Below, in pieces: positions 7,001-46,965 of a stretch of 64,000 bases of DNA; within the stretch, counting starts at the first letter, position 1, and the number at the start of each line of letters is the position of its first letter. Made by a program: the position numbers and the translations under genes. The DNA comes from Bacteroidota bacterium (GTDB lineage: Bacteria > Bacteroidota > Bacteroidia > Chitinophagales > Saprospiraceae). Below the pieces are notes generated by a model. The model worked only from the letters and a program-made list of their open reading frames with translations, searched no databases and had not been told where the DNA came from. Location of the stretch: positions 1 through 64,000 of the forward strand of contig PZPC01000018.1 of the NCBI GenBank assembly GCA_003045895.1, read 5' to 3'.

Positions 7001-10000
7001 CATACCGTCAGCTGGCCAACGGGTGGCACCAAAACGGTCACCCTTACGGTAACGGAAAACGGTTGCAGCGCTACCCTGGCGACCCAGAGCGTGAGCGTGG
7101 TAGGCCCCATTGCCACGCCCATGGTGAGTTGTGGCCCCGCTACGACTTCATCCGTGGTCTTCAACTGGGCAGCCGTCACTGGCGCTACCTCGTACACCGT
7201 AAATGTGAGTACCGGCCAGACCGGCGTGCTTGCGGGTGAGACGTATACCGTAACCGGACTAATGCCCGGCGAAACCGTAACCCTTACCGTGACGGCAAAT
7301 ACCAATAACGTCTGTGGTGCCACCACCTCGGCACCCGTGACCTGCACGGCCGCCAATTGCCCGAATTTCAATATTACCATTACCCCCCTTGCGGCGGTTT
7401 GCCTCAACGGAAGCAACGCTCCCACTACCCTCGTCGCAGCGGTTACTGGCGGCAATGGCAGTGGAGCGCTTACCTGGAGCGGCCCTGGGGTGACGGGCAA
7501 CCAATTTGACCCTACCGCTGCCGGAGCGGGTATGCACACCATCACGGCTACCTACACCGAGGGCGCCTGTAGCAATATGGCTACGACCACGGTTAATGTT
7601 TTCAATACCCCAACGGCAGACTTCACCATCGCACCGGCACCTGTTTGCATCGACCAGAACACCACCCTGACCTACACGGGTACGGGCAGCCCGGCGGCCA
7701 CCTACACCTGGAATTTCAATGGCGGGGTGGCAGTTCCGGGTACCGGCCCGGGGCCCCATACCGTCAGCTGGCCAACGGGCGGAACCAAGACCGTGACCCT
7801 GCGGGTAACCGAAAACATGTGTTCCAGTGCGGTAGTTTCGCAAAATATCACCGTAGCACCCCCGCAGGCAGCACCCGTGATCAACTGCAGCCCAACTACC
7901 ACTACCATTGTGTTCAGTTGGAATGCGGTAGCTGGCGCGAGTGGCTACCTGGTCAATATCCTGAGCGCACCCGCTGGCGCAATGGGTACCCTGGACGAAG
8001 CTGCCCGCACTTTTACAGTTACCGGGCTCAACGCCACGGAAAACGTGGAGATCGAGGTGATCGCCCTCAACAGTGGCCCCTGTGGCAACAGCAGCAATAC
8101 CTTTACCTGTCAGGCCCAGGATTGCCCGCCGATCATGGTGACGGCGACCGACTTACCTCCCCTGTGCCTGACCCCCAATTCGCCAGAGATCAACCTGGCG
8201 GTGGCTATTGTAGGCGATAACGGCACCGGGACAATCACCTGGTCGGGTGACGGCATTATCGATCCCGCTATGGGAACATTCTCCCCTATCATGGCTGGCG
8301 CTGGCGCCGCTGTGGTTACCGTCCGTTACCGGGAAGGGGCCTGTGAATACATCGATGACCTTACCATTGAGATCAACCCCGTACCCACGGCTGACTTTAC
8401 GGCAGATTCCCCCAGCTGCCTGACGGCGGCAACTACCGTGAGTTATACCGGATCGGCTGCTCCCAATGCCACCTACAACTGGGATTTTGGTGGTGGCACC
8501 GCCAATCCCGGCACCGGAGCCGGCCCCCATACGGTGACCTGGCCAACGGCAGGTGACCAAACCATCAGCCTGGTCGTTACGGAAGCTGGCTGTGCCAGTG
8601 CCTCCTTTACCCAAACCGTAACGGTAAATCTGGCATTGGTAGCCCCCATCATCAGCTGTGAAGTACGAACCGATTCGATCAGCTTTACCTGGCCGGAAGT
8701 AGTGGGCAGCACGGGGTACCTGGTCAGCATTGTCGATGCCCCCGCCAATGCCTTCCCTACGGGTGGCGATCCGGATCGAACGTTCACCCTGGCGGGCTTC
8801 ACCCCGGGACAGACCGCCACCATTGCGGTGCAGGCGCTCAGCGGAACGGCTTGCCCCGACATTACCTTTGAGGGCACCTGCGCGTTGGAAAATTGCCCGG
8901 ATGTGACGATCGCCATCACCGATGTTTTGCCCATCTGCCTGGACGCCAACGCGGCACCTTTCGGCCTGACGGCAGTCCTGACGGGAAACACCGGCAATAC
9001 CCTCGTTTGGAGTGGGCCAGGCATTATCGATCCGGTCGCCGGAACGTTTGATCCCAACGCCAGCGGCGCTGGAACTTTCACCATTAGCGTGGTTTACGAA
9101 GAAATGGGCTGCACCTATACCGACGATACAGCGATTACCGTGAACCCCCAACCCAATGCCAGTTTCACGGCCAGCGGGCCCATCTGTGCGGGGGAAAACA
9201 GCACCATCACCTATACGGGGGGCGCCGACCCTGGGGCTACCTACGCCTGGGATTTTGCCGGAGGGACCGTTGTCAGTGGCAGTGGCGCGGGCCCTTACGA
9301 AGTCAGTTGGGCAACGGGGGGCAACCCGACCATTAGCCTGGTCGTTACCGAGAACAATTGTGCAGCGGATCCCTTTTCCGTCTCGGTAGAAGTGGCCAGT
9401 CCGCTGTCACTTCCAAATATCAGTTGTACGAATGACAACACTTCGGTTACCTTCAGCTGGAATGCCGTGGTCGACGCCACCGGGTATACCGTTACGGTAA
9501 TCGATGTGCCTGCCGGAGCCGTTGCTACACCCGACCTGGCTAACCGGCAGTATCGCTTTACTAATCTGGCCCCCGGCGACCATGTCACGATCCAGGTTAA
9601 TGTGCTGACCAACAATGTTTGTGGCGGCGTTAGTGCTACCCAAACGTGTACAGCGCAAGCGTGTTCCGCGCGATCCTTCGGCGCGGCGGGCTACGGTCCT
9701 TTCTGTGTGGATGCGGGTTTACAGACCTTGAGCCCCATCATTACCGGGGGAAATATAACGGGCACGATCACCTGGTCGGGACCGGGTCTGCAAAATCCCG
9801 CCACCGGAACGTTCGATCCGGCCGCGGCCAGCCTGGGCAATAACCTCATCAACCTGGCTTACGCCGAAAATGGCTGTTTCTACGACACCACCTATACCAT
9901 TGTAGTGAATCCCTTGCCGGTTGCAGCCTTAACGGTTACGTCGCCCATTTGCCTGACCGAAACCAGTACGATCACTTTCACGGGCACCGCAGGGGTGGAC

Positions 10001-33427: not shown

Positions 33428-34465
33428 ATGCAAGCTATCCTCTACCACCGCTTCCAGGCTCCGCTGACCCTGGAGCGCGTTCCCGATCCCAGCCCTACGC
33501 CGCAGGGCGTGGTGGTGGAAGTCAAAGCCACCGGGCTGTGCCGCAGCGACTGGCACGGCTGGATGGGCCACGATGCCGACATTACCCTGCCCCACGTGCC
33601 GGGCCACGAACTGGCGGGTGTGGTGGTAGCCGTGGGTAGTGGGGTGCAACAGTGGAAGATGGGAGACCGCGTAACGGTTCCCTTCGTGGGCGGCTGTGGC
33701 CACTGTGCGGAATGCCGGGCGGGCGACCAGCAGGTGTGCCCCAACCAATTCCAGCCGGGCTTCACGCACTGGGGTTCCTTTGCCGATTACGTCGCCATCG
33801 ATTATGCCGACACCAACCTGGTTCGCCTGCCCGCCGCTATCGACGACGTGACCGCCGCCAGCCTCGGCTGCCGCTTTGCCACCTCTTTCCGGGCCGTGGT
33901 GGATCAGGGGCGCGTGCGCGGCGGCGAGTGGGTGGCGGTGCACGGCTGTGGTGGCGTGGGGCTGTCGGCCATCATGATCGCCAAAGCCTGCGGAGCGCAG
34001 GTCATTGCCATCGACATCAAGGCGGAGGCCTTGGCGCTGGCCCGCCAGGTGGGTGCTGATTTCGTCGTCAATGCTGCCGCGACGCCGGTGGTCGAAGCGA
34101 TTCGGGAGCTTACCCAGGGCGGGGTGCACCTGTCGCTGGATGCGCTGGGCCACCCCACTACCCTCTTCCATTCTATTACGTGCCTGCGGCGCCGCGGACG
34201 CCACGTGCAGGTAGGCCTGCTGGCCCCGGAGCAAATTCCAGCCCCCTTCCCGGTGGATCGGGTCATCGCCTACGAACTGGAGATCCTGGGCAGCCACGGC
34301 ATGCAGGCCCACCGGTATCCCGCCATGCTGGAGATGATCCTCCAGGGGCGCCTGCAGCCCCAATTGCTGGTGAGCCGCACCATTGACCTGGCAGCTATTC
34401 TAACGGAATTACCCCGCATGGATGAATTTGGCCAGGCAGGGATGCTGGTGGTGAAGACACCTTAA
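33428..34465 (+). CDS. Zinc-dependent alcohol dehydrogenase family protein
   Basis: 345 residues, medium-chain dehydrogenase. The catalytic zinc site is formed by the Cys of [11 protein letters not shown] and by [15 protein letters not shown]. The structural zinc loop is complete as [15 protein letters not shown] (C-x2-C-x2-C-x7-C). The coenzyme domain has [14 protein letters not shown], and the acidic residue of IDIKAEALA suggests NAD(H) preference. It probably oxidises a primary or secondary alcohol; the substrate is unknown. Its stop codon overlaps the stop of the convergent radical SAM gene by 4 bp (34462-34465). Confidence 0.9.
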
Positions 34466-35727
34466 AGGCTACTTGGTGCAAACCCCAAACAGGCCTGTTG
34501 CCCCAGCAAACGGATTATGTCCTCGGCCGGAAAGGCCAGTGCGCTGGCTACCTTGTGTGCACAAAACGGACAGCGGTGGGCATCGCCGTCGGTGTCGATG
34601 TAGAAGAAGCGGTCGCCAGACCCAAAACAGCCCACTTTCCGTTGGTGATACCCCAGGTAGTTGATAATGGGATAATCCTGGTAAGCCTTGGAGGTGTTGT
34701 ATGCCAAATACGCTTTTTCCAATAAAGCGATAGCGGTGGCGTCCAATTCCACCAGTTTACCGGCGTACCGGCCCGTGGCGCGGGGCTCTACGATCTGCAC
34801 AAAAGACACGCCTAAGGTCTTGGCCAGCTCCAGGTAAGCCGCCAGATTTTCGGGGGTCGTGAAAGCTTGGGTAGCGCAAAGCGACAGGGTGGTAACCAAG
34901 CCAGCTGCCTGAGCGTTTAGCACGGCCTGAATTGCCGCGTCGTAAGCGCCGGCAAAGCCCCGAAACTGGTCGTGCTGGCGGGCCTCATAATGGTCGAGGC
35001 TAACCATTGCGCCCGTTAAGCCCGCTGCTTTCAATCGCTGGGCTCGTTCCCGGTTCAATCCCAGGCCGGAGGTGATGATCCAAAAATCGGTACCCAGCCG
35101 GGCTGCTTTCAGTACCTCATAAAGGTCATTGACCCTCAGCATCGGTTCGCCACCGCTGAACATCATTTGGGTGGTGCCAAAATCCTGGTACTTATGGACG
35201 AGCTGGATGAGGTCGGCAACCGGGAGGTCTCCTTGCTGGTTGAGGTGATCCCATTCAAAACAATGTTCGCAATTCATGGGGCACTTCTTGGTGATCGCAA
35301 ACAGCAGGCTCCGCAACCCGGTGCGTGCTTGCCCGGGCAGCAGGCGACTGGCTTCGTGTTCGTGCATCTTGACGGATGCCACGGATGGAAACCCAGGGGC
35401 TGCCAACCGCCAGAAATATCGTCCATCTACTTTAGCCACTTTCGTGAGCAGGGGTTCGCCGAAAGTCGTCTCGTATTTCTCCCGGATCTGCCGGATCAGG
35501 TTGAAGGTGGTAACCAGGTTACCCGTTTTGCGGTACAATACGCCAAACAGCTGGCGGACCACCTTCAGCTTGAGCCACCTTTTCTCTCCTTGCCTCCTGA
35601 CAATGGTCGTGGGCTGTGGTGTAATATTTTCGCGCTGAAGTGCAGTTGACGCAGGTGTAATCATGGACTTCGTTTTTGGCGGTTTGTGGCGCCTGGTGAC
35701 AATGGGTAATTTAAGCAGATTGGTCAT
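34462..35727 (-). CDS. Radical SAM / SPASM-type protein
   Basis: 421 residues. The [4Fe-4S] motif is [10 protein letters not shown] (C149, C153, C156), followed by the GGEPMLR block near 193 that binds the SAM amino group. A C-terminal cysteine cluster ([17 protein letters not shown], then RCPFCAHK) resembles a SPASM auxiliary-cluster domain. Start uncertain: ATG 35727 or the internal ATG 35664 ([10 protein letters not shown]). SPASM enzymes often modify peptides or proteins, but no small precursor peptide is recognised next to it. It follows the lipoprotein gene by 18 bp and is probably co-transcribed with it. Confidence 0.85.
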
Positions 35728-35745: not shown

Positions 35746-37374
35746 CTATTGAACCTTAGCCAGACGTTCCTCTTGGTCGAGTACCCGCAAGTAGCTGGCC
35801 CGGGAAAAATCTGAAAAATAGCCAGGGGTTTTAAATTTATTCAATTCGGCAATTTTGGGTAAGCCCGAAAATTCGCGAATGAGTTCATAATAGCCACGGG
35901 TGTGCAGGAACACCGTTTGCACTTGCCCCGCAGGTACCGGGGGAACAGGAAAGACCAACTCCGTCACTTCACCCACCTGTTCCTGGGCCATGTATTGCTC
36001 GTCCGTTGCGGCCAGAGCGGTGGTCCAATCTTGCTGGCCCGTCCCAAAGGCCCGGAGGGGTTGCCAATGGGTAACTTCCAGGGCCTGGTTATCCGTAAAA
36101 TCCAGGGCAGCGTAATCCAATTCCCAAAACATAAATCCCGTTTCTATTTTAATGGCCACGGTTTCACCCGCGATACTGGACAAGTCCAGGGGAATGACCA
36201 ATTCCCGGTCGGCCAGGGGGCCCACCGTCATCACCTCATCAGCCAGCTGCCATTCGCCAGCTTGTTGGATGTAGATCGAGAGGGGGAAATCATTTTCGCG
36301 CACCTTTTGCAGGCGTTCAGCGCTGGGAATCCGGCTTTGCTTGTCCATGAAATGCGCGTAGGAAGTGCCAAATTTGCCAAGAAATTCACCGAACAAATAA
36401 TCAAACCAGAGGGTATTTTTCCCCTTCAGCACCAGTTTGCCGCTGGTGGCAGCGGCGGGTTTGTCAAACACCAGGTTGATCCCGTTTTTGGAATAGCCCT
36501 CGTCGTTGAAGAGAAAAACGGCCTTATCCTTCCCGGCCAGGGTGGGCAATAAGTCGTCGCCCTGGTAGGAATTGGCCCGAACCGGGAGTTGCGAATTTTT
36601 CAGGAGTTGCACCTCGCCGTATTTGTCCAAAAGGACGGTTTGCGTGGGCGCATGATTGACCACTACGAGTTCGGCCAGGTCGGTGTACTGCCGTTCCTTC
36701 AATTCATTGCTGATGCGCAATTGGTAAGTACCCCGCACGGGCTGAATAGCTGGTAGGGGCAGGTAATCATCCCGGGACAGGTTGGGGGCAATAGCCCCGC
36801 CAAAAGTTTCCCCGGCGAAGAGAAAGGCATCGCCCGTATTGACGTACACGTAAGGACAGGAACTTTTGGTTAAGGCCACAATAATTAAAAGAATGGCAAA
36901 AACACCCGTAATGATACCAAAAGTAGAAAACACATAGGAAGCGATGGTGGCCCCTGAATCCAGTTCAATGATCCGCAGTTCTTTAAGATCAGTTAAAGGG
37001 ATTGCTACGGGGCCCGTTTGCAACGCGGCAGCATCGTTTTTGAGGTAAATATGAACCTCCTGCAGGATGTCTTTTTCTTCTTTTTTAAACCGCCGTCGCC
37101 GGTCTGGGGTGTAGTATACGGTACGGGTAGTGTCTGCCAGGTTGCCCGACAGGCTGGTCGAGTCGGCGGTAATCTCGGTCAGCTGGTACAAGGTTTCTCC
37201 CTCGTGTACGATGAAGTACTTATGAATTTTCCCGATGTGGTTGATGCTTGGCGCAAAATCGCTGGCGACTTCCCGGTATTTAAAATAGCGACAACTGGTG
37301 GTCTGGAAGAGCAGTAAGGTGGAGAGGAAATAAACCAGGACTTTTCTCAGGGGGGAGGTGGGTGGTGTGCTCAT
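35746..37374 (-). CDS. Putative surface lipoprotein with internal membrane segment
   Basis: 542 residues from the ATG at 37374 (MSTPPTSPLRKV); the frame is open to 37443, but that part lacks sense as a leader. The signal ends in a lipobox FQTTSC. A second hydrophobic segment near 165-190 (FGIITGVFAILLIIVAL) is followed by KSSCPYVYV and GETFGGAIAPNLSRDDYLPLP, a block I associate with a Bacteroidota family of uncharacterised lipoproteins (from memory, not checked). The rest is beta-rich. It shares a 443-bp divergent upstream region with the sigma-54 operon starting at 37818. Confidence 0.75.
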   Translation of the reverse strand: MSTPPTSPLRKVLVYFLSTLLLFQTTSCRYFKYREVASDFAPSINHIGKIHKYFIVHEGETLYQLTEITADSTSLSGNLADTTRTVYYTPDRRRRFKKEEKDILQEVHIYLKNDAAALQTGPVAIPLTDLKELRIIELDSGATIASYVFSTFGIITGVFAILLIIVALTKSSCPYVYVNTGDAFLFAGETFGGAIAPNLSRDDYLPLPAIQPVRGTYQLRISNELKERQYTDLAELVVVNHAPTQTVLLDKYGEVQLLKNSQLPVRANSYQGDDLLPTLAGKDKAVFLFNDEGYSKNGINLVFDKPAAATSGKLVLKGKNTLWFDYLFGEFLGKFGTSYAHFMDKQSRIPSAERLQKVRENDFPLSIYIQQAGEWQLADEVMTVGPLADRELVIPLDLSSIAGETVAIKIETGFMFWELDYAALDFTDNQALEVTHWQPLRAFGTGQQDWTTALAATDEQYMAQEQVGEVTELVFPVPPVPAGQVQTVFLHTRGYYELIREFSGLPKIAELNKFKTPGYFSDFSRASYLRVLDQEERLAKVQ

Positions 37375-37548
37375 GTTTTTAAAGTTAGGGTTTTGCGAAA
37401 TCATTGGTCGATTCAAGCATCTCCTACGCCGGCAGTTCAACAAAAGAAAGGGTCTCCCCCCTTGTTTTTACCTGGAAATACCGAATAGCTGAATCATAAA
37501 GTTCGTTGAGAAAGGACCGGATGCTTCTGATTTTGATCATGGGGCCAA

Positions 37549-37610: not shown

Positions 37611-37728
37611 GACTGGCAAAAAACAATTTCCCTCACAATGCCGAATTTTTTTTCGGCGATCAGTCCCTCAATGGTACTTAGCTGAAAAAAAATTCGCAAA
37701 AACAGCTAAAAAGCCTTGTTTTTCCATT

Positions 37729-37743
37729 TGGCACACATCTTGC
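37729..37743 (+). promoter_or_regulatory. Sigma-54 (-24/-12) promoter
   Basis: TGGCAC at 37729-37734, five bases, then TTGC at 37740-37743. The 15-nt layout is exactly that of the consensus TGGCACG-N4-TTGC, with the invariant GG and GC in register. Transcription should start near 37755, about 60 bp before the ATG at 37818. The sigma-54 activator at the far end of the operon supports the call. Confidence 0.85.
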
Positions 37744-37817
37744 CTTTTGCTAGCCATAGCAAATCCTGCCGGGCAGGAAAATTGAATCTAATTATTCAAA
37801 ATTTAAATCCTTTCATT

Positions 37818-38558
37818 ATGCACGATCTGGATAGAACCATGCGGGAACGCGGCTATGACTACGACCGCGAATTCGATTACGAAGAAGAATACAGTGACAA
37901 TGGTGAATTCGACTACGAAAACGAATACGATGACGAATACACCACAGACTACGAAGCCGATGAATACGGCACGGACTACGAACTGGATGACGAATACGAT
38001 ACGGAAATGGGCAGTCCTTTTTCCGAAGAGATGGAATCCGAACTGGCGTTTGAATTGCTTTCGGTGAACAGCGACGAAGAATTGGAGGAATTCCTGGGCA
38101 AATGGCTTAAAAAAGCCTGGCGAGGCATTAAAAAAGTGGCACCTGGCGTGGGCCGATTTCTGAAAAAAGGACTCAAGGGGTTGGCAAAAGTTGCCCTTCC
38201 AGCGGTGGGGACCTTTTTTGGTGGTCCGGTAGGCGGCATGGTAGGCGGAAAACTGGCCAATGCCGCCTCCAACCTTTTTGAAATTGAGCTGGAAGGGCTC
38301 AGCCCGGAAGACCAGGAATTCGAAGTAGCCAAACGCGTCATTCGTTACGGCAACCAGGCCATGCAAAATGCGGCCAACCTGTCCCAGCGTATGCCCCCTG
38401 CACAAGCAGCAAATCTGGCACTCAAACAAGCCGCTGCCACCCACGCGCCGGGGATGCTGAAACCACGCCAAAGTACCCGTTCAGGAGAGGGCACCTGGCG
38501 GCGCGTAGGCAGCCGTATTGTGCTATCCGGGGTCTACGGCCGGCGCTGGCGTCCTTGA
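37818..38558 (+). CDS. Protein with acidic N-terminus and cationic amphipathic Gly-rich core (function unknown)
   Basis: 246 residues from the ATG at 37818. Residues 11-62 are almost only Asp, Glu, Tyr and polar residues. Residues 95-125 are basic and amphipathic (KWLKKAWRGIKKVAPGVGRF, then LKKGLKGLAKV), followed by a Gly-zipper-like hydrophobic stretch at 126-150 (ALPAVGTFFGGPVGGMVGG). A helical Ala/Gln-rich region leads to a basic C-terminus (TWRRVGSRIVLSGVYGRR). There is no signal peptide. Proteins with this acidic-then-amphipathic plan occur in cyanobacteria and myxobacteria as far as I recall, without assigned function. The core looks like a membrane-active peptide and the acidic part could mask it; both are inference. 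First gene of the sigma-54 operon, 24 bp before the next gene. Confidence 0.75.
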   Translation: MHDLDRTMRERGYDYDREFDYEEEYSDNGEFDYENEYDDEYTTDYEADEYGTDYELDDEYDTEMGSPFSEEMESELAFELLSVNSDEELEEFLGKWLKKAWRGIKKVAPGVGRFLKKGLKGLAKVALPAVGTFFGGPVGGMVGGKLANAASNLFEIELEGLSPEDQEFEVAKRVIRYGNQAMQNAANLSQRMPPAQAANLALKQAAATHAPGMLKPRQSTRSGEGTWRRVGSRIVLSGVYGRRWRP

Positions 38559-38582: not shown

Positions 38583-39926
38583 ATGCGTACGGACAATGGG
38601 TTACACATTGGAAACGGGCTGCCGGTTCGGCAACGGCAGGGTAGCAGCAACCGCCAGTACCGCCCAAAGCAAGAAGGACATCTGGAGGATTACCGCCTAT
38701 TCCTGGTCAATGAATCCAGGGCTTTGCTCACCCGTTTGCGGCAAGTAAAACCATTTCTGCTGAGTATGCCAATGGTTGTTGCGGCTAACATTTCACCGGC
38801 AGCTCAGCAGGGTATTCATCAGCTATTGGGGGATAACTACCAAGAGTTGAAGGTAAAAATTCAGTTGCTCATGGCTGCGCTGAAAAAGGGAGTGGTCCAG
38901 TCAGCGGAAGATGCCCAGGGATCTTTTGCCTTTATCAAATTGCAGTTCAACTGGCTCCTCGACAGCCAGGACATCTTTGCCGATGTGTTGTCCCAACGCA
39001 GTGAGCACGAAACGGGAACCTGGTTGGCAGGATTGGATGCGCTGGCCGAAGATGCCTTGCGGATAAAGGGCAATCTGTTCGCTCCCCCTCCACTGATTAC
39101 CTACCTGGACCGGGGGCATGGCGCGGCTATTCGTCGGGCCCGCACCCGGCTACCGAGCGGAAAGTCGAACCCGGTGGCGGTCATCCGGGTGCCACGAGAG
39201 CGAATGATCTCCAATGGTATCGCCTCCTCCTTGATCCACGAAGTAGGACACCAGGGAGCGACCTCCTTGCACCTGGTTCGTTCTTTAAAGGTTCAGCTGC
39301 AACAAAAAACCAGAACCGACCGCCCCAACCAGGACCTTTGGCAATGGTACGAACGCTGGATTTCAGAAATACTCTCAGATCTGTGGTCGGTGGCTCACCT
39401 GGGCATCGGAGCTACTACCGGATTGATAAACGTCGTGAGTGTACCCAGCTACTTTGTTTTCCGGCTCAACACCGACGATCCCCATCCACCGCCATGGATC
39501 AGAGTAAAACTCAGCCTTGCTTTTGGCGAAGCCTTGTTTCCCGACCCGCAGTGGAAGCAACTGAGCAGCCTCTGGGATAGGCTCTATCCCCTAAGTTTGA
39601 TCAGTGATGCCAGAAGAAAGACCTACGAAAGGTTAGCCGCATTGTTGCCTGAGTTTAGCAGGCTCATCCTGCAGCATCATTCGGAGGCCTTGCAGGAACA
39701 CCCCCTGCAGGAGATTTTCCCCTACCGCGCCCGGCAACCAGGAAGGCTGCGAAAACTTTTTCAATCGTGGAGAAACGACCCGCTGCGGATGAAATCATTT
39801 CGCCCGGCACTGGTTTTCGCCGCCATTGGCCAGGCCCGAGCTGACAACCTATTGACCCCGGAAAAGGAAAATGAAATCCTGGGCAAGGTACTCGTTTCCT
39901 GGGCACTGCGCCGGTCTATTTCTTAA
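38583..39926 (+). CDS. HExxH (gluzincin-like) metallopeptidase-like protein
   Basis: 447 residues, no signal peptide. SLIHEVGHQG places a zinc-peptidase HExxH motif at residues 219-223. Forty residues on, WISEILSDLWS offers Glu262 as a third ligand and Asp266 in a pattern (ExxxD) seen in gluzincins. The N-terminal 200 residues are mainly helical, with Gln/Arg-rich ends. The family is not known to me by name. It sits between the acidic/amphipathic protein and the 665-aa protein with 18-24 bp gaps, so it is clearly in the operon. Processing of the first gene's product is an obvious but untested possibility. Confidence 0.75.
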   Translation: MRTDNGLHIGNGLPVRQRQGSSNRQYRPKQEGHLEDYRLFLVNESRALLTRLRQVKPFLLSMPMVVAANISPAAQQGIHQLLGDNYQELKVKIQLLMAALKKGVVQSAEDAQGSFAFIKLQFNWLLDSQDIFADVLSQRSEHETGTWLAGLDALAEDALRIKGNLFAPPPLITYLDRGHGAAIRRARTRLPSGKSNPVAVIRVPRERMISNGIASSLIHEVGHQGATSLHLVRSLKVQLQQKTRTDRPNQDLWQWYERWISEILSDLWSVAHLGIGATTGLINVVSVPSYFVFRLNTDDPHPPPWIRVKLSLAFGEALFPDPQWKQLSSLWDRLYPLSLISDARRKTYERLAALLPEFSRLILQHHSEALQEHPLQEIFPYRARQPGRLRKLFQSWRNDPLRMKSFRPALVFAAIGQARADNLLTPEKENEILGKVLVSWALRRSIS

Positions 39927-39944: not shown

Positions 39945-41942
39945 ATGGCAACCAGGAGAAAAAAACCAACCAACCCCGTTACGCCAAACAAACCCGTTAC
40001 ACCAGTAAACCCTGTAGTGACGCCAGTCAAAACAATTAAACCCAATATCCTCAGCAAGGAAATAATTTCAAATTTCAACCAACTCAGGACGGACAAAACC
40101 AACCTGATAAGCATGAAACTTGACTTTGACCGGCCGCTGAGCGACAATGAGCTCGAGGAATACCGCCAGAAGTTAGCACTCATCATTACCGACGAAAGTA
40201 ATACGTTAGCCCCAATTTCTCCCACCAAGCGAAAAGGAACAGAATTCTTTTTCCAAATCCCCAAGGGCGCTTTAACGCCATTCCTGGATTCGGCAATAGT
40301 GGACTTAGACTTTCAAGTCGACAACAAAACCATTGTCCAGGATCAACGGGTAATTGCAGAGAATGCAACGGAAGCACTGGCATTTGGAGTGAAAAACATC
40401 GCCGATAAATCCGAATTGGACATAAATGTCCAGCAGCCTGCTTTCCCGCGCAGTCCGCTGTTGGTGCTCTTCAAGTCCATTGTGGATAGCAGTGACCGAA
40501 TATCCTTCAACAGCTACAAAAGCTTTATGGACAAGTTTTTCTGTGAAGGACCGGGGAACAACAAAAACGATGCAGATAATGGACTTTTCCGAAGAAGGTT
40601 TCTCCCCTTTAATGACACCGATAGCTACCGTATCCTCAAAGTGGCTACCGAAACCTTTTTGATGACCAATGTGGGCGTTCATTTGGATTTAAAAAACATT
40701 TCAGACCAGGATCTGGATAATTTTTTCATCAATGAGAAAGGGTTAAGCTTTTTTGCCAGCAACAAGCAAGGCTTCAACCAACTGTGGAGCAAGTACTTAA
40801 ATGTACCACAGCACAAGTTGGTTGGTGGAGACAGCAATGTAGCTATCCTACCCTTTCTTTACACGATCCGGCGGAAGTTCAGCGAAATGGGGATCAAGAA
40901 AAACTGGCTGGACAATGTGATTGAAAGTGAGCTTTCGGACAAGTCCTTGCCGGTGAATACCGACGAACAATGCATCGGCCTCATTCACCAACGACTTAGC
41001 TGTCCTATTCTGATCGAGCTGATCTGGTCTTACTGGCACGAGGAAGCCATGTTGGTGCAAGCGCTTAATGCGATCTTGCTGCGTTTTCAGAACATGCGGA
41101 CCAATAGCAGCCGGGATCCCCTGGCGGAAATGGAAATATCCCATTTGCTCCCCTTGAACAACCTGCTGTGGGGCCTGACCCAGGACCAACAACATTTGCT
41201 AAGTGTGGTGCGTCGCAACCATGAGTACGACCATCACTATGGCATTTCCTTAAAAGGTAAGGCTGTCGCGGAGTTGCGAAGTGCCGATAGTCGCACCCGA
41301 TTTCTTGATGCGTTCCACGGTGTCCTCTATCTGGCGGCGAAATACTATGCGGATTCCTCCAACAAGCTGGTAGAACCCGATGCTTTCCCGATGCTGAATG
41401 CACTGCGGGAAATACATTTCATCATTGCCGAAGGCATGCACAACCAGTACGGTGACCTGCCCACTACCGCCCGCATCGAAATGTTGATGCAGCAGTGGAT
41501 TCTGGCACGCCCTGAATTGCGCGAATTCCTGCCGGGCCGGGCTGCCGTGCCTTACACCGAACCCTGGATGGATCGGATTGCTTCCATGAATAAGCTGCAG
41601 GGATGGACGGATACCTCTCCCATGCACTTCAACAACCTCGCCGTATTTGGCGAACAGATTCTACTGTCTATCCGCTTTGGCGACTGGAGTGAGCAGACCC
41701 GCACGCAAGATGACGCTGCCCAGTGGGCACTTTTCTTCCGCGCCCAGATCCAGGGCTATATCCACTCCTACAAAGCAGCCACGGGCGTCGATCTGACGGC
41801 TACGGTGGTAGGAAACAAGGTGGACAGCATTCCACCTTCACAACACTTGCTGCGCAGGCTGCAGGAACAACTGAATGGCAACAGGGTAAAGCAAAACGGG
41901 CAGGTCACACCACGGAAACAATCCAAAAGTGAACTTTACTGA
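39945..41942 (+). CDS. 665-aa protein of unknown function in the sigma-54 operon
   Basis: 665 residues. The start MATRRKKPTNP leads into a Pro/Val/Thr-rich basic leader (residues 1-33), then a beta-rich N-terminal domain to about 150 and a large helical C-terminal part. The region from about 405 is the most family-like: LLPLNNLLWGLTQDQQ, YDHHYGISLKGKAV (near 430), RSADSRTRFLDAFH, EGMHNQYGDLPTTARIEML, LQGWTDTSPMHFNNLAVFGE and QIQGYIHSYKAATGVDL. I recall similar blocks in actinobacterial and cyanobacterial proteins, but no function. The His/Tyr/Asp-rich YDHHYG and EGMHNQYGD blocks could bind metal or a cofactor. No signal peptide or transmembrane segment is seen. The next gene overlaps it by 14 bp. 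Confidence 0.8.
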   Translation: MATRRKKPTNPVTPNKPVTPVNPVVTPVKTIKPNILSKEIISNFNQLRTDKTNLISMKLDFDRPLSDNELEEYRQKLALIITDESNTLAPISPTKRKGTEFFFQIPKGALTPFLDSAIVDLDFQVDNKTIVQDQRVIAENATEALAFGVKNIADKSELDINVQQPAFPRSPLLVLFKSIVDSSDRISFNSYKSFMDKFFCEGPGNNKNDADNGLFRRRFLPFNDTDSYRILKVATETFLMTNVGVHLDLKNISDQDLDNFFINEKGLSFFASNKQGFNQLWSKYLNVPQHKLVGGDSNVAILPFLYTIRRKFSEMGIKKNWLDNVIESELSDKSLPVNTDEQCIGLIHQRLSCPILIELIWSYWHEEAMLVQALNAILLRFQNMRTNSSRDPLAEMEISHLLPLNNLLWGLTQDQQHLLSVVRRNHEYDHHYGISLKGKAVAELRSADSRTRFLDAFHGVLYLAAKYYADSSNKLVEPDAFPMLNALREIHFIIAEGMHNQYGDLPTTARIEMLMQQWILARPELREFLPGRAAVPYTEPWMDRIASMNKLQGWTDTSPMHFNNLAVFGEQILLSIRFGDWSEQTRTQDDAAQWALFFRAQIQGYIHSYKAATGVDLTATVVGNKVDSIPPSQHLLRRLQEQLNGNRVKQNGQVTPRKQSKSELY

Positions 41943-43065
41943 TGGCGGGCACCCGCGACTGGATTTTACCTCCGCCCTGTACTTAGGTTTTCGGCACAAT
42001 AGCCAAAGCCTTTTGCCCTGGGACAGCTTGACTACCGGTGCGCCCGCAGCCTTGCAGGAACCAGGCATGGCGCACCGGATACCCCGACAACTGGCCAGGA
42101 TGATGGGATTAGAAGAGGGTCTGGCTTTTCCTTCTACCCTTCATCTTTTCCGAGACTTGTTTGATCACCTGGTAGCACAGGATTCGCTTTTCTTCTTCGA
42201 CGACCAGGCGTATCCGATCAGTACCTGGGGGTTGGAGGCGACCCTCCAAAACAGGTCGAATGTCTTCCGCTTTCCACACGGAAATATTCGGATGCTGGCC
42301 CAGCTGCTGAAAACGAACTTGCGGGCAGGTCAACGGCCCGTAATGGTCACCGATGGATGGTGCCCCCAGTGTGGCGGGCCATTACCCTTACGAGCCTACC
42401 AGTCGTTGCTCTTGCTGGCCAATGGATTGCTGGTACTGGATGATACCCAGGCACTGGGTGTACTCGGTAAAAATCCTACCCGGCAGATGCCCTATGGTTT
42501 TGGTGGTGGAGGTATGTTGCCCTGGCTGGGCTTGCGCCACCCGGATATTGTTGTCGGGAGTTCTTTGGCAAAAGGGTTTGGTGTGCCAATGGCAGTACTG
42601 GCTGGCAGCCACACTTTGGTCAGGAAAATCCAAAGCAAAAGTCTTACCCGGGTGCATTGCAGCCCGCCGTCAAAGGCAGATTTCCGGGCCACTCAACATG
42701 CCCTGGCCAGCAATGCCAGGCGAGGCGACGAACTTCGGCACCGCTTATACGCCAATGTGCGCTTGTTCAAACAGGCACTACAGGCACAGGGCATTGCGAC
42801 GTCCGGCAATTTTTTTCCGGTGCAATTGCTCAAAGGTCTGGACCAGGAAGAAGCGGTCTGCCTGGTCGATCGCCTGGCGGAAAGCGCAGTCAAGGCGATC
42901 GTGGTAAATAATCATTACCGTGAGCCAGCAGCGTGTTTTATCCTGCGGGCCGACCACAGCAGCGATGATATCCGTTGGGCAACGCATTTGCTCGGAAAAT
43001 TACTGAAACCCATTCGCAAAAAACGATCACAAACCCCAGGCGATGACAGACTTTGCACCTACTAA
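41929..43065 (+). CDS. PLP-dependent fold-type I enzyme, alpha-oxoamine synthase-like
   Basis: 378 residues from a GTG that overlaps the previous stop by 14 bp, which suggests translational coupling. The PLP-binding Lys is K215 in SSLAKGFGVP. The Asp that contacts the pyridine nitrogen is in VLDDTQALGVLG (D171/D172), where 7-keto-8-aminopelargonate synthases have DEAHGIGVLG. The residue that stacks on PLP in that family (His) appears to be replaced in DDQAYPISTWG. WCPQCGG (C145, C148) and TRVHCSPPS are further marks. It could be a synthase condensing an acyl donor with an amino acid, or an aminotransferase; the substrate is unknown. A biosynthetic enzyme inside a protease operon is unexpected. 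Confidence 0.8.
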   Translation: MNFTDGGHPRLDFTSALYLGFRHNSQSLLPWDSLTTGAPAALQEPGMAHRIPRQLARMMGLEEGLAFPSTLHLFRDLFDHLVAQDSLFFFDDQAYPISTWGLEATLQNRSNVFRFPHGNIRMLAQLLKTNLRAGQRPVMVTDGWCPQCGGPLPLRAYQSLLLLANGLLVLDDTQALGVLGKNPTRQMPYGFGGGGMLPWLGLRHPDIVVGSSLAKGFGVPMAVLAGSHTLVRKIQSKSLTRVHCSPPSKADFRATQHALASNARRGDELRHRLYANVRLFKQALQAQGIATSGNFFPVQLLKGLDQEEAVCLVDRLAESAVKAIVVNNHYREPAACFILRADHSSDDIRWATHLLGKLLKPIRKKRSQTPGDDRLCTY

Positions 43066-43993
43066 AACAACCGGCCCTGACCACGAAATTGTCTTAGGTA
43101 CAGACGAGCGAAGAAGGGTGAATACGACCCAAAAGCCGCCTTTTCGCTGGATCTGCTCCCTGGAAGTAGAATTCCCCGAACCGGTTATCAACGCCCTTGG
43201 CGTGCTGGAGCACCGTGACAAAAGATGGGAGGAACTGCCAACTGGCGATAAAGGCTGCGGGAGTGGACTGCTCATTTCTTCTAAAAAGGTACTGACGGCC
43301 AGCCATGTGCTAATGGGATTTAAAATTGTGCCTGGAAGAAAGTCCGGCGAACAAATGCTTCAACCCGTATTGGCAAGTCGGGTACGGGTGATTCCGGGCA
43401 GAAATGACCACCACCATGCCGCCCCACCTCCTTTTGGCGTTTGGACAGCCCATAAGGTACACGTAAATCCGATTTTCAAAAAACGACTCAGCGGTAGTCC
43501 TGAGGCGATCACGAAAAACAGCGTGCTGGCAGCTTTACCCTTTGATGTGGGTATGGTCGAACTGAAGGCCAAGATCACCAGGCATTCAAATCGACGTCTT
43601 CAGCTGGGTGACAAAATCGGCTGGTGGGGCAAGGATCCGGCATTCCGGATCCTCCCCGTTTCGGCACAACGACAAAAAACACTTACCCGGTATCTCGCCC
43701 ATATTGGAGGCTTTCCAGGAGACAAAGGCCCGTTACCCTGCAGCGTGCCCTATACCTCCCGCGGCGCCATCCTGACCGCTGCCCCTACAATTAGCGGGCG
43801 CAGGCTTGATCTGCTGTTGTACCAGGCCGATACCAGTGCCGGGATGAGTGGCAGTCCGGTGTGGATAGAAAACCAGCAAGGCCATAAGTACCTGGTAGGC
43901 GTACACAGTAGTTTTTCAACTTATCAGGCGGATCAACAAGTTAATATTGGTGCATTGCTTACGCCCCCCCTGATGCAAAGCAAGTGGTGGTAA
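43043..43993 (+). CDS. Trypsin-like (S1/V8 family) serine protease 1
   Basis: 316 residues; the start overlaps the previous gene by 23 bp. The catalytic triad is intact: His88 in LTASHVLMG, Asp168 in PFDVGMVEL and Ser269 in GMSGSPVW. GCGSGLLIS before the His and YLVGVHSS after the Ser are typical of chymotrypsin-fold proteases. There is no signal peptide and no propeptide with a recognisable cleavage site, so it may act in the cytoplasm or leave by a non-Sec route. It lies directly before a second protease of the same fold; the two are diverged (different lengths and insertions), so they are old paralogues. Confidence 0.85.
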   Translation: MTDFAPTKTTGPDHEIVLGTDERRRVNTTQKPPFRWICSLEVEFPEPVINALGVLEHRDKRWEELPTGDKGCGSGLLISSKKVLTASHVLMGFKIVPGRKSGEQMLQPVLASRVRVIPGRNDHHHAAPPPFGVWTAHKVHVNPIFKKRLSGSPEAITKNSVLAALPFDVGMVELKAKITRHSNRRLQLGDKIGWWGKDPAFRILPVSAQRQKTLTRYLAHIGGFPGDKGPLPCSVPYTSRGAILTAAPTISGRRLDLLLYQADTSAGMSGSPVWIENQQGHKYLVGVHSSFSTYQADQQVNIGALLTPPLMQSKWW

Positions 43994-44088: not shown

Positions 44089-44868
44089 ATGAGAGATCTC
44101 ATTGATGAAATATTGGAAATGGATGACTATGAATATTCGGCCCTGGAAGACCGGGAAGTAGTCCTCGACGTGGATGATCGAAAACCGGTCACCTATTTTG
44201 CCCCCTGGCGGTATATCTGCCAGATAAACGTCATTGGGGTCGGTCATGGAACGGGCACTTTGATTGGGCCAAAAACAGTCCTGACCGCTGCACACGTAGC
44301 CTGGGATATCAAAACCAAAACGTCCCATCCAAGAATCAACGTACTACAGGGCAAAAACGGACCCGATCAACTCCAGCAATCTGAAGTAGAAAAGGTTGTT
44401 TTCCCCAGTGGATTGATAGACCCCGTAAAAGGCTGGGATTATAATAATGATAAAAGTAAGTGGCATTTGGATTATGCCATTCTTCATCTCAAAGACCGGA
44501 TCGGTGTAAAATACGGTTATTGGAGTTTCGCGCACAAAATCTGGAAAGACGATCCAATTGGTACGAGTATGTGGTCATCTGCGTATGCCCTTTCCAAAAT
44601 CAATGTAAACGTGGCCGGATATCCCGGAGACAAAGGGAATAATTTTGCCTATTGGGATTTTGACAAAGTAATCAGGAATGACGGAAAAATCCTCTTTTAT
44701 CAAAATGATACCGCGGCGGGCCAAAGTGGCGCGCCTGTTTTTTACCGAAAAGGAACCCGCAGAAGGGTCCTAATAGGAATTCATAGTGGAGGAGGAGGCG
44801 CTGGAAAAAACAGAGCTGTTTTTTTGAATAAAAGCGTCCAGGCTTTTATTCAAAAATATACGAAGTAA
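44089..44868 (+). CDS. Trypsin-like (S1/V8 family) serine protease 2
   Basis: 259 residues from the ATG at 44089; the frame is open back to 43984 but that part overlaps the previous gene and is not protein-like. The triad is His69 (LTAAHVAWD), Asp128 (HLDYAILHL) and Ser213 (GQSGAPVF). The N-terminus MRDLIDEILEMDDYEY is acidic, and its LIDEIL echoes the LLDEIL near the C-terminus of the OmpA-like protein two genes on. AGYPGDKG-type loops are shared with protease 1 (GGFPGDKG). No signal peptide. Expected to cleave proteins or peptides; specificity unknown. Confidence 0.85.
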   Translation: MRDLIDEILEMDDYEYSALEDREVVLDVDDRKPVTYFAPWRYICQINVIGVGHGTGTLIGPKTVLTAAHVAWDIKTKTSHPRINVLQGKNGPDQLQQSEVEKVVFPSGLIDPVKGWDYNNDKSKWHLDYAILHLKDRIGVKYGYWSFAHKIWKDDPIGTSMWSSAYALSKINVNVAGYPGDKGNNFAYWDFDKVIRNDGKILFYQNDTAAGQSGAPVFYRKGTRRRVLIGIHSGGGGAGKNRAVFLNKSVQAFIQKYTK

Positions 44869-44912: not shown

Positions 44913-45491
44913 ATGAACGAGTATTCAATTTCTCCAGCTTCTTCCACCTCTCCTCGGGCGCGCGTCCAGACAGGGGTTCCACAGCAATTTGTGCTTGACC
45001 ATTTCAGCTACAACAGGTCAGAGCTATCCGGCAACCACAAGCGGGCGCTCGACAATCTGGCCAAGTTAATTGCTGACACCCACCAGACGGCTCAACCCGT
45101 TTTGGAAATTGTACTGGTAGGGCATGCGGATAAAGCCGGGTCGGTGACCTACAACCACTTATTAGGCCTTAAACGAGCTTGTTCAGCAGCCATTTACCTC
45201 TTGAACTTACTGCACCGCAAGTATCGCAGTCAGCTGAAATTCCCCGTTCCCGTAACCCTCAATTCAGAAGGAGAACTCACGCCAATTTCTAACGTGGACG
45301 CAAAAAATCGGCGGGTTGAAATTTGGCTGAAGGCCGAAGCGCCCCGACGCCAGCAAAGGCCTGTGCCTCCCCTGCCGCCCGTTTACCGCCCCCGCCGCAA
45401 ACGCCCCGGACGCCCTCATCCTTCCAGAAGACCAGGGGGGCCTATTAAGCGGGAAACTTTACTTGACGAAATTTTGAGCTACCAGGAATAG
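44913..45491 (+). CDS. OmpA-C-like domain protein without signal peptide
   Basis: 192 residues. Residues 28-140 resemble the OmpA C-terminal (peptidoglycan-binding) domain: FSYNRSEL, LEIVLVGHADKAGSVTYN, LKRACSAAIYLL and NRRVEIWL follow the usual order. Unlike true OmpA proteins there is no signal peptide, no beta-barrel and no lipobox. The tail (about 145-180) is Pro/Arg-rich and basic, and the last residues carry LLDEILSYQE, a motif shared with the start of protease 2. Last gene of the operon; it could target a complex to the cell wall if exported, or the domain may be used for another interaction. Confidence 0.75.
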   Translation: MNEYSISPASSTSPRARVQTGVPQQFVLDHFSYNRSELSGNHKRALDNLAKLIADTHQTAQPVLEIVLVGHADKAGSVTYNHLLGLKRACSAAIYLLNLLHRKYRSQLKFPVPVTLNSEGELTPISNVDAKNRRVEIWLKAEAPRRQQRPVPPLPPVYRPRRKRPGRPHPSRRPGGPIKRETLLDEILSYQE

Positions 45492-45579: not shown

Positions 45580-46965
45580 TCATTTGCCACTGCGCCTGGT
45601 GGCCTGATGCAGTTGTACCGTCCGGTCGGAAACATCCAGGTATTTGGCTACGGCCTGGATGTTTCCACTGTTTTCTTCCAGCGCAATATCCAAAGCCGTT
45701 TCTGCTGTTATACGCTTGATCTCTTTTAAACTAATCCCATTAGCCAGCGCCAACCGAATGGCTTCTTGTAGGCCTTTTTCCTGCCAGACTGCTGGGTTTT
45801 CGAGCAACTCCCGATCAGCGAATGGCAGGCAACCCAACGTAACGACACCCGCTCCTGGGTAACGGCTGGAAATCCGGTGGATCAGTTGACGCAATTCCCG
45901 AATGTTGCCGGGGTAGGCATATAACGCAAGGAAATTGCGCAGCACATTGTCCAGTGTAGGTGCGTAATCGAGCCGGAGTACTTCCTGCAAAAAATATTCC
46001 GTTAATTCCGGAATGTCCTCCCGCCGATCGCGCAGTGCCGGAAGCGTACAAGTGCTGGTAGAGATGCGATAGTATAAATCTTGCCGAAACCTTCCCGCTG
46101 CTACTTCCTGTTTCAGATCCCGGTTAGTTGCGCAGATCAGGCGAAAATCAGTCTGAAGCCATTGGTTGCTCCCAACGCGTTTGTAGGCACCTTCCTGAAT
46201 AACGCGCAACAATTCGGCTTGTAGGGCCAAAGGTAATTCCCCGATTTCATCCAGAAACAAAGTTCCGCCATCTGCCAGTGAAAATACACCTTCCCGAATG
46301 GAAACAGCATCGGTGTAGGCTCCTTTTTCGTGGCCAAAAAATTCACTCCCGGAAAGGGAAGGCACTACTGTCGTACAATCCAACAGCATCAAATTCCCTT
46401 TTTCAGGCCTTTGATCCAAGTCGTGGATCAAGCGAGCGATTAACTCTTTACCGATACCGGTTTCGCCCAGTAGCAATACACTATTTTGTGAAAAACAAGC
46501 GGTATCAATCACTTGACGCAACAAGTCGATCCAGACTTTACTGCTACCGATTGCCGCTTTTTTAATCCGATCCGATTGGATTATATTTTCTACTGTTAAC
46601 CAACGTTCTACCCGCAGCACAATTAGTTCTGCAAGCCTTGGTTTGGGATCCTCAAATAAAATGTCTTCTACGCCGCAATTAAGCAATTCCCAGGACCTGT
46701 AAAATGGCAGCTTTTCACTACCCAAATACAACAATAAAATCCTTCTACCCGCTTGTGACTCCTCAATGACCAAATCCAAAATAAGCTGATGACATGATTT
46801 TTCATCGAAGGCCAACAACAAACTGGTGCTCTTTTGTCCAGACTCATAACACGTAACCCCACCTTGCTCCAGCACGTCGAGCAGCAGTGGAAATTTTTTG
46901 TTTTGCGCCAGACAAAAATTTCGAATCTCTAGCGTGCAAATGGTTTTTTGAGCGGTGTTCTTCAT
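45580..46965 (-). CDS. Sigma-54-dependent transcriptional activator (enhancer-binding protein)
   Basis: 461 residues. The N-terminal part (1-130) looks like a degenerate receiver-type domain with no clear phospho-acceptor Asp. The AAA+ sigma-54 interaction domain has Walker A GETGIGKE (167-174), a GAFTGA-loop variant GAYTDA (215-220), Walker B GGTLFLDE (233-240) and CATNRDLK (278-285). The C-terminal Fis-type helix-turn-helix is at about 425-455 (GNIQAVAKYLDVSDRTVQ). It should activate a -24/-12 promoter, and the only strong one found in the window drives the adjacent operon. It is convergent with that operon, with an 88-bp gap. A perfect TGGTGA-N6-TCACCA box lies about 470 bp upstream of its start. 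Confidence 0.92.
   Translation of the reverse strand: MKNTAQKTICTLEIRNFCLAQNKKFPLLLDVLEQGGVTCYESGQKSTSLLLAFDEKSCHQLILDLVIEESQAGRRILLLYLGSEKLPFYRSWELLNCGVEDILFEDPKPRLAELIVLRVERWLTVENIIQSDRIKKAAIGSSKVWIDLLRQVIDTACFSQNSVLLLGETGIGKELIARLIHDLDQRPEKGNLMLLDCTTVVPSLSGSEFFGHEKGAYTDAVSIREGVFSLADGGTLFLDEIGELPLALQAELLRVIQEGAYKRVGSNQWLQTDFRLICATNRDLKQEVAAGRFRQDLYYRISTSTCTLPALRDRREDIPELTEYFLQEVLRLDYAPTLDNVLRNFLALYAYPGNIRELRQLIHRISSRYPGAGVVTLGCLPFADRELLENPAVWQEKGLQEAIRLALANGISLKEIKRITAETALDIALEENSGNIQAVAKYLDVSDRTVQLHQATRRSGK

Follow-up and report, generated by a model that had tools for sequence, protein, structure and literature searches.

The 64,000-nucleotide stretch analyzed here (positions 1 to 64,000 of contig PZPC01000018.1, assembly GCA_003045895.1, Bacteroidota bacterium; hereafter the window) contains a gene, gene A, whose product combines an acidic tail with cationic amphipathic helices and a glycine-zipper segment, and which stands at the head of a conserved set of genes that we call the cassette. 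On the strength of sequence comparisons and models, we put at roughly 40% the probability that A belongs to a new effector cassette as its carrier or translocation module. Gene A would be the first component of this sigma-54-controlled cassette; its glycine zipper and cationic amphipathic helices would insert into or permeabilise a membrane, and cargo would cross that membrane via A, either in trans or fused to it in cis. The acidic tail would serve as a docking, solubility or sorting segment, and the adjoining gene B may trim it. The cassette as a whole probably shifts wall-cutting and toxin-like enzymes that lack signal peptides across a membrane. If true, this would be a sigma-54-driven effector-delivery route in at least seven phyla. 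A gene set so widespread and tightly conserved, for which we found no name and whose variable slot takes murein hydrolases, proteases, nuclease-type domains and APOBEC-like deaminases, suggests a system of antagonism or envelope remodelling that is as yet undescribed, and its sigma-54 promoter, the protease site of B, the glycine zipper and the short tags of some cargo proteins would offer handles on how cytoplasmic enzymes without signal peptides exit or enter cells.

Gene A and its predicted structure

The features of gene A are as follows (coordinates in the window).

37818 to 38558, plus strand: gene A, acidic-tailed, cationic, glycine-zipper protein of 246 residues (open reading frame (ORF), homologues, model)
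37848 to 38003, plus strand: acidic D/E/Y-rich disordered tail, residues 11-62 (25 D/E of 52; predicted local distance difference test score (pLDDT) 41-47 in blocks 11-60)
38097 to 38195, plus strand: cationic amphipathic helices, residues 94-126 (hydrophobic moments; model helices 86-103 and 111-126)
38199 to 38279, plus strand: glycine-zipper helix, residues 128-154 (at least two GxxxG in 41/41 aligned members; model helix, low confidence at 130-132)
38490 to 38531, plus strand: C-terminal hairpin motif GxWxRxGxxIxLxG, residues 225-238 (model strands 226-230 and 233-237; conservation)

A sequence-only reading of the window had delimited this ORF, and its coordinates proved exact, with the ATG at 37818 and the stop codon at 38556-38558. 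A longer ORF could begin at a TTG at 37716, but the start at 37818 is favoured because homologues begin MHDLDRT there. Relatives were collected with a six-sequence profile from species genomes; the best 80 of 119 gave 79 loci, which with the window make up the 80 loci used below. Alignments comprised 41 sequences of A (window protein included), 40 of B, 30 of C, 27 of the pyridoxal 5'-phosphate (PLP) enzyme and 19 of the amidohydrolase.

The same reading had described residues 11-62 as extremely acidic, residues 95-125 as cationic and amphipathic, and the protein as carrying the glycine segment GGPVGGMVGG and no signal peptide; all four descriptions held. Besides its 25 acidic residues, the tail contains 11 Y and 2 K/R, and an equally acidic 52-residue window was found in just 12 of 1428 ORFs called in the 80 loci, gene A homologues counted in. 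The helical hydrophobic moment reached 0.72 for residues 94-111 (charge +6) and 0.77 for residues 111-126 (charge +5); of 5000 shuffles, none equalled the first value and one the second. GGPVGGMVGG occupies residues 135-144, and a crude hydropathy test found no signal-peptide-like segment in the protein.

An AlphaFold2 model built on the 41-sequence alignment left the tail unstructured (residues 16-63 below pLDDT 50) and predicted helices between residues 70 and 214, with ten-residue pLDDT means of 76-95 over blocks 71-210. Structure prediction was among the checks suggested with the sequence-only reading; in this full-length model, the basic part is placed in helices 86-103 and 111-126 with pLDDT of 76-93 in ten-residue blocks, and the tail and the glycine segment stay uncertain, the glycine block 131-140 reaching only 59. 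A C-terminal beta hairpin was predicted at 226-237. Its residues G225, W227, R229 and G231 are nearly invariant in the A family, and a pattern for the hairpin motif matched 85 of 115 A ORFs, a single non-core ORF (of 998) and no other core ORF (of 315).

Searches of Pfam, NCBIfam and PHROGs placed gene A in no trusted family (none in Pfam; best E 0.054 in NCBIfam and 0.02 in PHROGs), and a plasmid collection gave no match. With a limit of E 0.001, Foldseek linked neither the model of gene A nor that of gene C to a PDB structure. The best VIA-align score for gene A (Z 5.4 to histone chains, root-mean-square deviation 5.3 over 120 aligned residues) lies in the range of common arrangements and was given no weight. 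PDB 8ugc_A (FD15) was considered as a relative and rejected; it reached E 8.3e-4 over the whole sequence, no single stretch passed, and the family profile missed it.

Spread and conserved design of gene A

Relatives of gene A were found in at least 79 further loci besides the window, in Bacteroidota, Pseudomonadota, Nitrospirota, Myxococcota, Actinomycetota, Acidobacteriota and Gemmatimonadota, with phyla assigned from organism names, in part via genus taxonomy, and several of the genomes being metagenome-assembled genomes (MAGs). Within the order of the window's organism, a homologue was present in 5 of 298 sampled genomes, its own genome counted in. The distribution is patchy, as two congeners lack an A homologue. 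In a sample of 345 genomes of the phylum, A was found in four and B in five, and all four A genomes have B. The fifth B genome (G539) has an A-like gene right before B that the A profile missed; it encodes, in order, an acid tail, a K/R-rich segment, a stretch containing glycines and, at the C-terminus, RKGQKIVIRSI, indicating that the design of A persists beyond detectable sequence similarity. This very divergent version of the cassette (L102:6098-8206), from the same phylum, has HEAGHE versus HEVGHQ in B.

The sequence-only reading had raised the question of whether homologues keep the acidic-basic order, and they do: the tail is negative in 40 of the 41 aligned members and the basic segment positive in all 41, so that both halves are retained in 40/41. 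An ELA..ELL stretch is acidic (-7 to -11) in every aligned member, and GxxxG occurs on average 4.5 times per member, compared with 1.8 in shuffles. Six copies (L030, L042, L070, L037, L073 and L087) combine a tail charge of 0 to -6 with a basic segment of +7 to +11, and all six have a CxCxxC motif near the start. The charges of tail and basic segment are weakly correlated (rho -0.31, p 0.05). At least two A ORFs are present in 35 of the 73 loci with called A ORFs; L009, with copies at 9860-10510 and 10637-11413, is an example. Such tandem paralogues suggest that A may be a two-component carrier.

The helices also fit a soluble protein. A could be a scaffold, a chaperone or a peptide precursor, modified for example by the PLP enzyme and the amidohydrolase, whose membrane-like features would be incidental to a soluble helical domain. 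The good confidence of the predicted helical domain, the conserved C-terminal hairpin and the retention of active-site residues by the cassette enzymes all suit this idea, which ranks third among the rival explanations. We nevertheless regard it as unlikely: GxxxG motifs far above the shuffled expectation in all 41 members are not accounted for, and a radical SAM gene of the window (34462-35727), a possible peptide-modifying partner, is in none of the neighbour clusters listed as shared by three or more loci. A radical SAM peptide route was dropped for the latter reason.

Gene order and core genes of the cassette

Gene A opens the conserved order and is often followed by a second A; B, C, the PLP enzyme, a variable slot, the amidohydrolase and a sigma-54 activator, usually convergent, come next. 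The core and regulatory features in the window are listed below; the amidohydrolase gene is missing from the window cassette.

37729 to 37744, plus strand: sigma-54 type -24/-12 site TGGCACACATCTTGCC (10/11 consensus positions; about 74 bp before the gene A ATG)
38583 to 39926, plus strand: gene B, unclassified putative zinc metallopeptidase with HExxH then ExxxD (invariant site residues; tblastn)
39945 to 41942, plus strand: gene C, unclassified, with a mostly helical C-terminal domain (tblastn, 75/80 loci; model)
41929 to 43065, plus strand: PLP enzyme resembling BioF, lysine K215 conserved (TIGR00858 match at E 1.3e-17, well short of the cut-off)
45580 to 46965, minus strand: convergent sigma-54 activator (Sigma54_activat E 4.3e-56)

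Three tblastn queries per gene detected B in 77/80 loci, C in 75/80, the PLP enzyme in 63/80 and the amidohydrolase in 60/80. Locus ORFs were called by a simple script, which missed B in L043, L057 and L064 (recovered by tblastn) and is a source of false ORFs among the slot contents. In the three loci without B (L037, L051 and L070), the A copy is of the type otherwise located after the PLP gene, and it sits near the edge of its contig.

Upstream of the first A gene, a sigma-54 site of at least 10/11 consensus positions occurs in 37 of the 74 loci considered (the window among them), compared with 27 of 1480 random windows from the same loci; the random windows include coding parts, and related loci are counted more than once. 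An activator was present among the called ORFs of 63/80 loci. Sigma-54 control of the cassette is therefore well supported as a prediction from sequence.

In gene B, residues H219, E220, H223, E262 and D266 are invariant in 40/40 sequences, so that HExxH and the downstream ExxxD, a feature of gluzincin-type zinc peptidases, are present throughout. HExxH plus ExxxD is the thermolysin-type arrangement. Pfam and PDB sequences gave no match backing a gluzincin fold, and neither B nor C could be placed in a trusted family of the Pfam, NCBIfam, PHROG or PDB-sequence libraries. For gene C, PDB profiles gave no match either; its model is helical and partly confident without a convincing relative, and its best VIA-align score (Z 3.8) is again in the range of common arrangements and carries no weight. 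Both metabolic-type enzymes of the cassette keep their predicted active sites, with K215 of the PLP enzyme conserved in 27/27 sequences and D4, H6, H8, H102, H150 and D204 of the amidohydrolase in 19/19.

Several loci (L034, L037, L040, L073, L074 and L080, named from a reading of their sequences) have an M20-type peptidase gene, placed either between slot and amidohydrolase or close to the PLP gene; M20 is found in 8 of 70 scanned slot members. An M20-type peptidase may be a further optional core part.

Acidic tail and gene B

In the strongest rival to the carrier reading, A would be a pore-forming or antimicrobial protein masked by its acidic tail and freed by cleavage, most likely by B. In its favour are the opposite charges of tail and basic segment across the family, the high amphipathic moments of gene A and an invariant HExxH...ExxxD site in a neighbour found in nearly every locus. 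Against it, the six CxCxxC-type copies have the basic part with little acidic tail, the two charges are only weakly correlated, the basic part is predicted to be helical, and A modules occur fused behind other domains (see below), an arrangement easier to reconcile with a carrier than with a free peptide toxin. We consider the masked pore doubtful; for the tail, the role of a docking tag appears likelier than that of a mask.

The sequence-only reading had proposed just such an acidic mask, removed by a protease of the same operon, and had named the two S1 proteases of the window. One part of that proposal stands, as the acidic-basic order and the adjoining putative protease gene, B, are conserved. 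The six weak-tailed copies speak against a simple acid mask, although the ELA..ELL stretch remains acidic even in these. The S1 proteases fit poorly: a profile of the first S1 protease found S1 genes in 9/80 loci, in contrast to 77/80 for B, and, as there is no K/R between residues 17 and 95, an enzyme with the assumed K/R specificity would be unable to cut between tail and helix. S1 proteases were accordingly rejected as a general unmasking mechanism.

Putative cargo slot

The variable slot of the window holds three genes.

43043 to 43993, plus strand: S1 trypsin-like protease 1 (Pfam Trypsin above cut-off, Trypsin_2 just below)
44089 to 44868, plus strand: S1 trypsin-like protease 2, probable start 44089, with an N-terminal MRDLIDEIL tag (Pfam Trypsin)
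44913 to 45491, plus strand: OmpA-like domain protein with C-terminal end ETLLDEILSYQE (Pfam OmpA E 7.5e-9)

We scanned 70 of 82 slot ORFs (at least 100 residues) against Pfam; among the 25 of 40 families listed, PG_binding_1 (14 of the 70), M74 (8), M20 (8) and Trypsin_2 (7) were the most frequent, followed by GIY-YIG (6), APOBEC-type deaminase (4), M23 (2) and OmpA (2), with GH25, YkuD, Amidase_2 and others found once each. When scanned singly, two of the GIY-YIG proteins gave weak matches that fell short of the curated cut-off (2.7e-4 and 1.1e-3). Slot proteins with a recognised domain are thus, as far as domain matches tell, mostly enzymes directed at the envelope, at proteins or at nucleic acids. 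Matches to APOBEC/NAD1/SNAD4-type deaminases, with E values down to 6e-10, lie in the slots of L022, L034, L040 and L089; those of L034 (15228-16322) and L089 (15239-16366) were scanned singly, and those of L022 and L040 were assigned from likeness. These deaminases would be bacterial relatives of AID/APOBEC in an effector slot.

Fourteen murein-type slot proteins and fusions were subjected to a crude hydropathy test, and none showed a signal-peptide-like segment: their best N-terminal 11-residue hydropathy was at most 1.29, compared with 2.57 and 2.77 for two controls from the window. This set was hand-picked, the starts of the L075 and L088 proteins were moved to an inner codon, and L037:5809-6984 was included without a single Pfam scan.

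A similar slot protein was shared by 24 of 133 locus pairs at 60-70% identity of B, compared with 32 of 37 pairs above 80%, suggesting that related backbones often carry different cargo. Seven loci (L036, L050, L066, L081, L085, L060 and L078) encode fusions in which other domains precede the A module. The list was drawn from ten flagged ORFs, of which L060:3708-4916 and those of L012 and L057 were discarded by eye as over-long ORF calls. The fusions of L036 and L050 contain a peptidoglycan-binding domain; the fusion of L060 has no Pfam domain, its likeness to GIY-YIG being a motif read by eye. The slot protein of L082 ends in an A-type C-terminal motif.

Murein hydrolases without signal peptides, encoded beside a membrane-active-looking protein, are also what a programmed lysis or suicide cassette would contain, and this is the next rival explanation: a holin-like A would be induced by sigma-54, and the slot enzymes would destroy or open the producer, for defence or for release of goods. 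The S1 proteases match the PADLOC model LmuA (E 3e-7 and 1.5e-8). Other PADLOC results point away from a catalogued defence system, as B, C, the PLP enzyme and one amidohydrolase gave no match and A matched only DpdH, marginally (E 0.008 over 57 residues); the OmpA-like ORF resembles ZorB (2.2e-8), and the activator resembles RtcR-type proteins via its AAA+ part (5e-82). A has no holin-like transmembrane segments, and one to few slot genes of varied chemistry would resemble weapons more than a lysis apparatus. Self-lysis by the cassette therefore appears improbable to us.

Comparison with known delivery systems

The carrier reading draws on a precedent, the glycine zipper of Tde1, a DNase effector of the type VI secretion system (T6SS) of Agrobacterium. 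The motif was reported to be required both to permeabilise membranes and to enter prey cells, but not for secretion (PMC10240207). Common to Tde1 and the cassette are GxxxG repeats in a segment associated with effectors, for which a role in bringing a toxin enzyme over a membrane is proposed; the repeated GxxxG of a Tde1-like translocator is found in 41/41 aligned members. The two differ in that the zipper here mostly lies in a protein of its own, which also has an acidic tail and cationic helices, and in that 29 of 42 cassette genomes gave no Hcp match. The Cdz bacteriocins of Caulobacter are likewise glycine-zipper proteins in bacterial antagonism; A differs in having an acid tail and in heading a different gene set (PMC5380434).

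Toxins of PVC-type extracellular contractile injection systems (eCIS) share with the cassette an HExxH peptidase tied to diverse toxins, including those of OmpA type, and a broad phyletic spread; the signature given for their PVC-metallopeptidases is HExxHxxQ (PMC3482391). The corresponding position of gene B, 226, is A in 26, S in 9 and V in 5 of 40 sequences, not Q, and the HExxHxxQ-E signature was absent from B in 40/40. Classical polymorphic toxins also pair a fixed delivery part with exchangeable effector chemistry (PMC3482391). Here, however, the effectors are mostly separate slot genes, the fixed genes A, B and C match no searched family, and the layout of an N-terminal delivery part with a variable C-terminal toxin was not found, the seven fusions placing the A module behind. 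Apart from the contractile sheath, which may be linked to it (see below), no defining feature examined places the cassette in a catalogued delivery system, and we rate it as new, with a putative delivery function. No entry listed by searches of an open-access library was recognisable as this cassette, which may still have been described in other papers.

Observations that weigh against a carrier

Several observations weigh against A as a carrier. The best 19-residue hydropathy of gene A is 1.34, and only 1 of 41 members reaches 1.6, so A is no classical transmembrane protein. The seven A fusions come from two genera, Nitrosomonas and Duganella by organism name. Furthermore, none of the secretion machines looked for is common to all carriers. 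Among 42 cassette genomes of the 80 (own genome included; several are drafts or MAGs), the T6SS protein Hcp, the only T6SS component searched, was found in 13, with none in the own genome, and a contractile sheath (PF04984, E 1e-3 or better) in 24, 21 of them over the family cut-off. The sheath was less common in a sample from the order of the window's organism, being present in 33 of 198 genomes (15 over cut-off), versus 5 of 9 cassette carriers of that order (p 0.012), the nine carriers being assigned from organism names and taxonomy. A sheath or contractile injection system may therefore be linked to delivery of the cassette products. As neither Hcp nor the sheath occurs in all carriers, neither looks obligatory, though incomplete genomes blur the counts; dependence on a T6SS was rejected on the Hcp count. 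The own genome has a match to a phage-type contractile sheath on another contig (G000:C50:50954-51217).

The tags of the cargo have to be read with similar caution. CxCxxC occurs in the first 100 residues of 7 of 85 slot ORFs (the 82 plus the three of the window) and in 6 of 115 A ORFs; none of the 726 remaining ORFs of these loci has it. An acidic 30-mer is present in 16/85 slot ORFs versus 32/726 others. The MRDLIDEIL tag of S1 protease 2 is common to slot ORFs of L011, L032 and L055; the LIDEIL-type pattern, which recurs in this lineage, matched 3/85 slot ORFs versus 1/726 others and, as written, matched once in the own genome, in S1 protease 2 itself. Any tag or acidic stretch was found in 23/85 slot ORFs, compared with 44/726. 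Since the patterns were set after the sequences had been viewed and most slot ORFs have none of them, shared cargo tags are suggestive only. A machine-light form of delivery, in which A itself would ferry tagged, signal-peptide-free enzymes over the envelope while B, C and the two metabolic-type enzymes prepare or anchor A, is accordingly a tentative extension of the carrier reading and clearly less probable than that reading itself.

Other observations

A phage origin of gene B was considered and dropped, as a phage collection gave no match to it. The B gene of L077 has a match in five plasmid records, two of which were inspected and have no annotation there. Near a Massilia cassette, L031:11474-12052 is an ORF with HHPSLA-type repeats; its counterpart in L071 was called in another frame, and it is possibly no gene. 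In the window, the radical SAM gene noted above (34462-35727) and a gene of 565 residues without a trusted Pfam family (35746-37443) lie directly upstream of the cassette, both on the minus strand.
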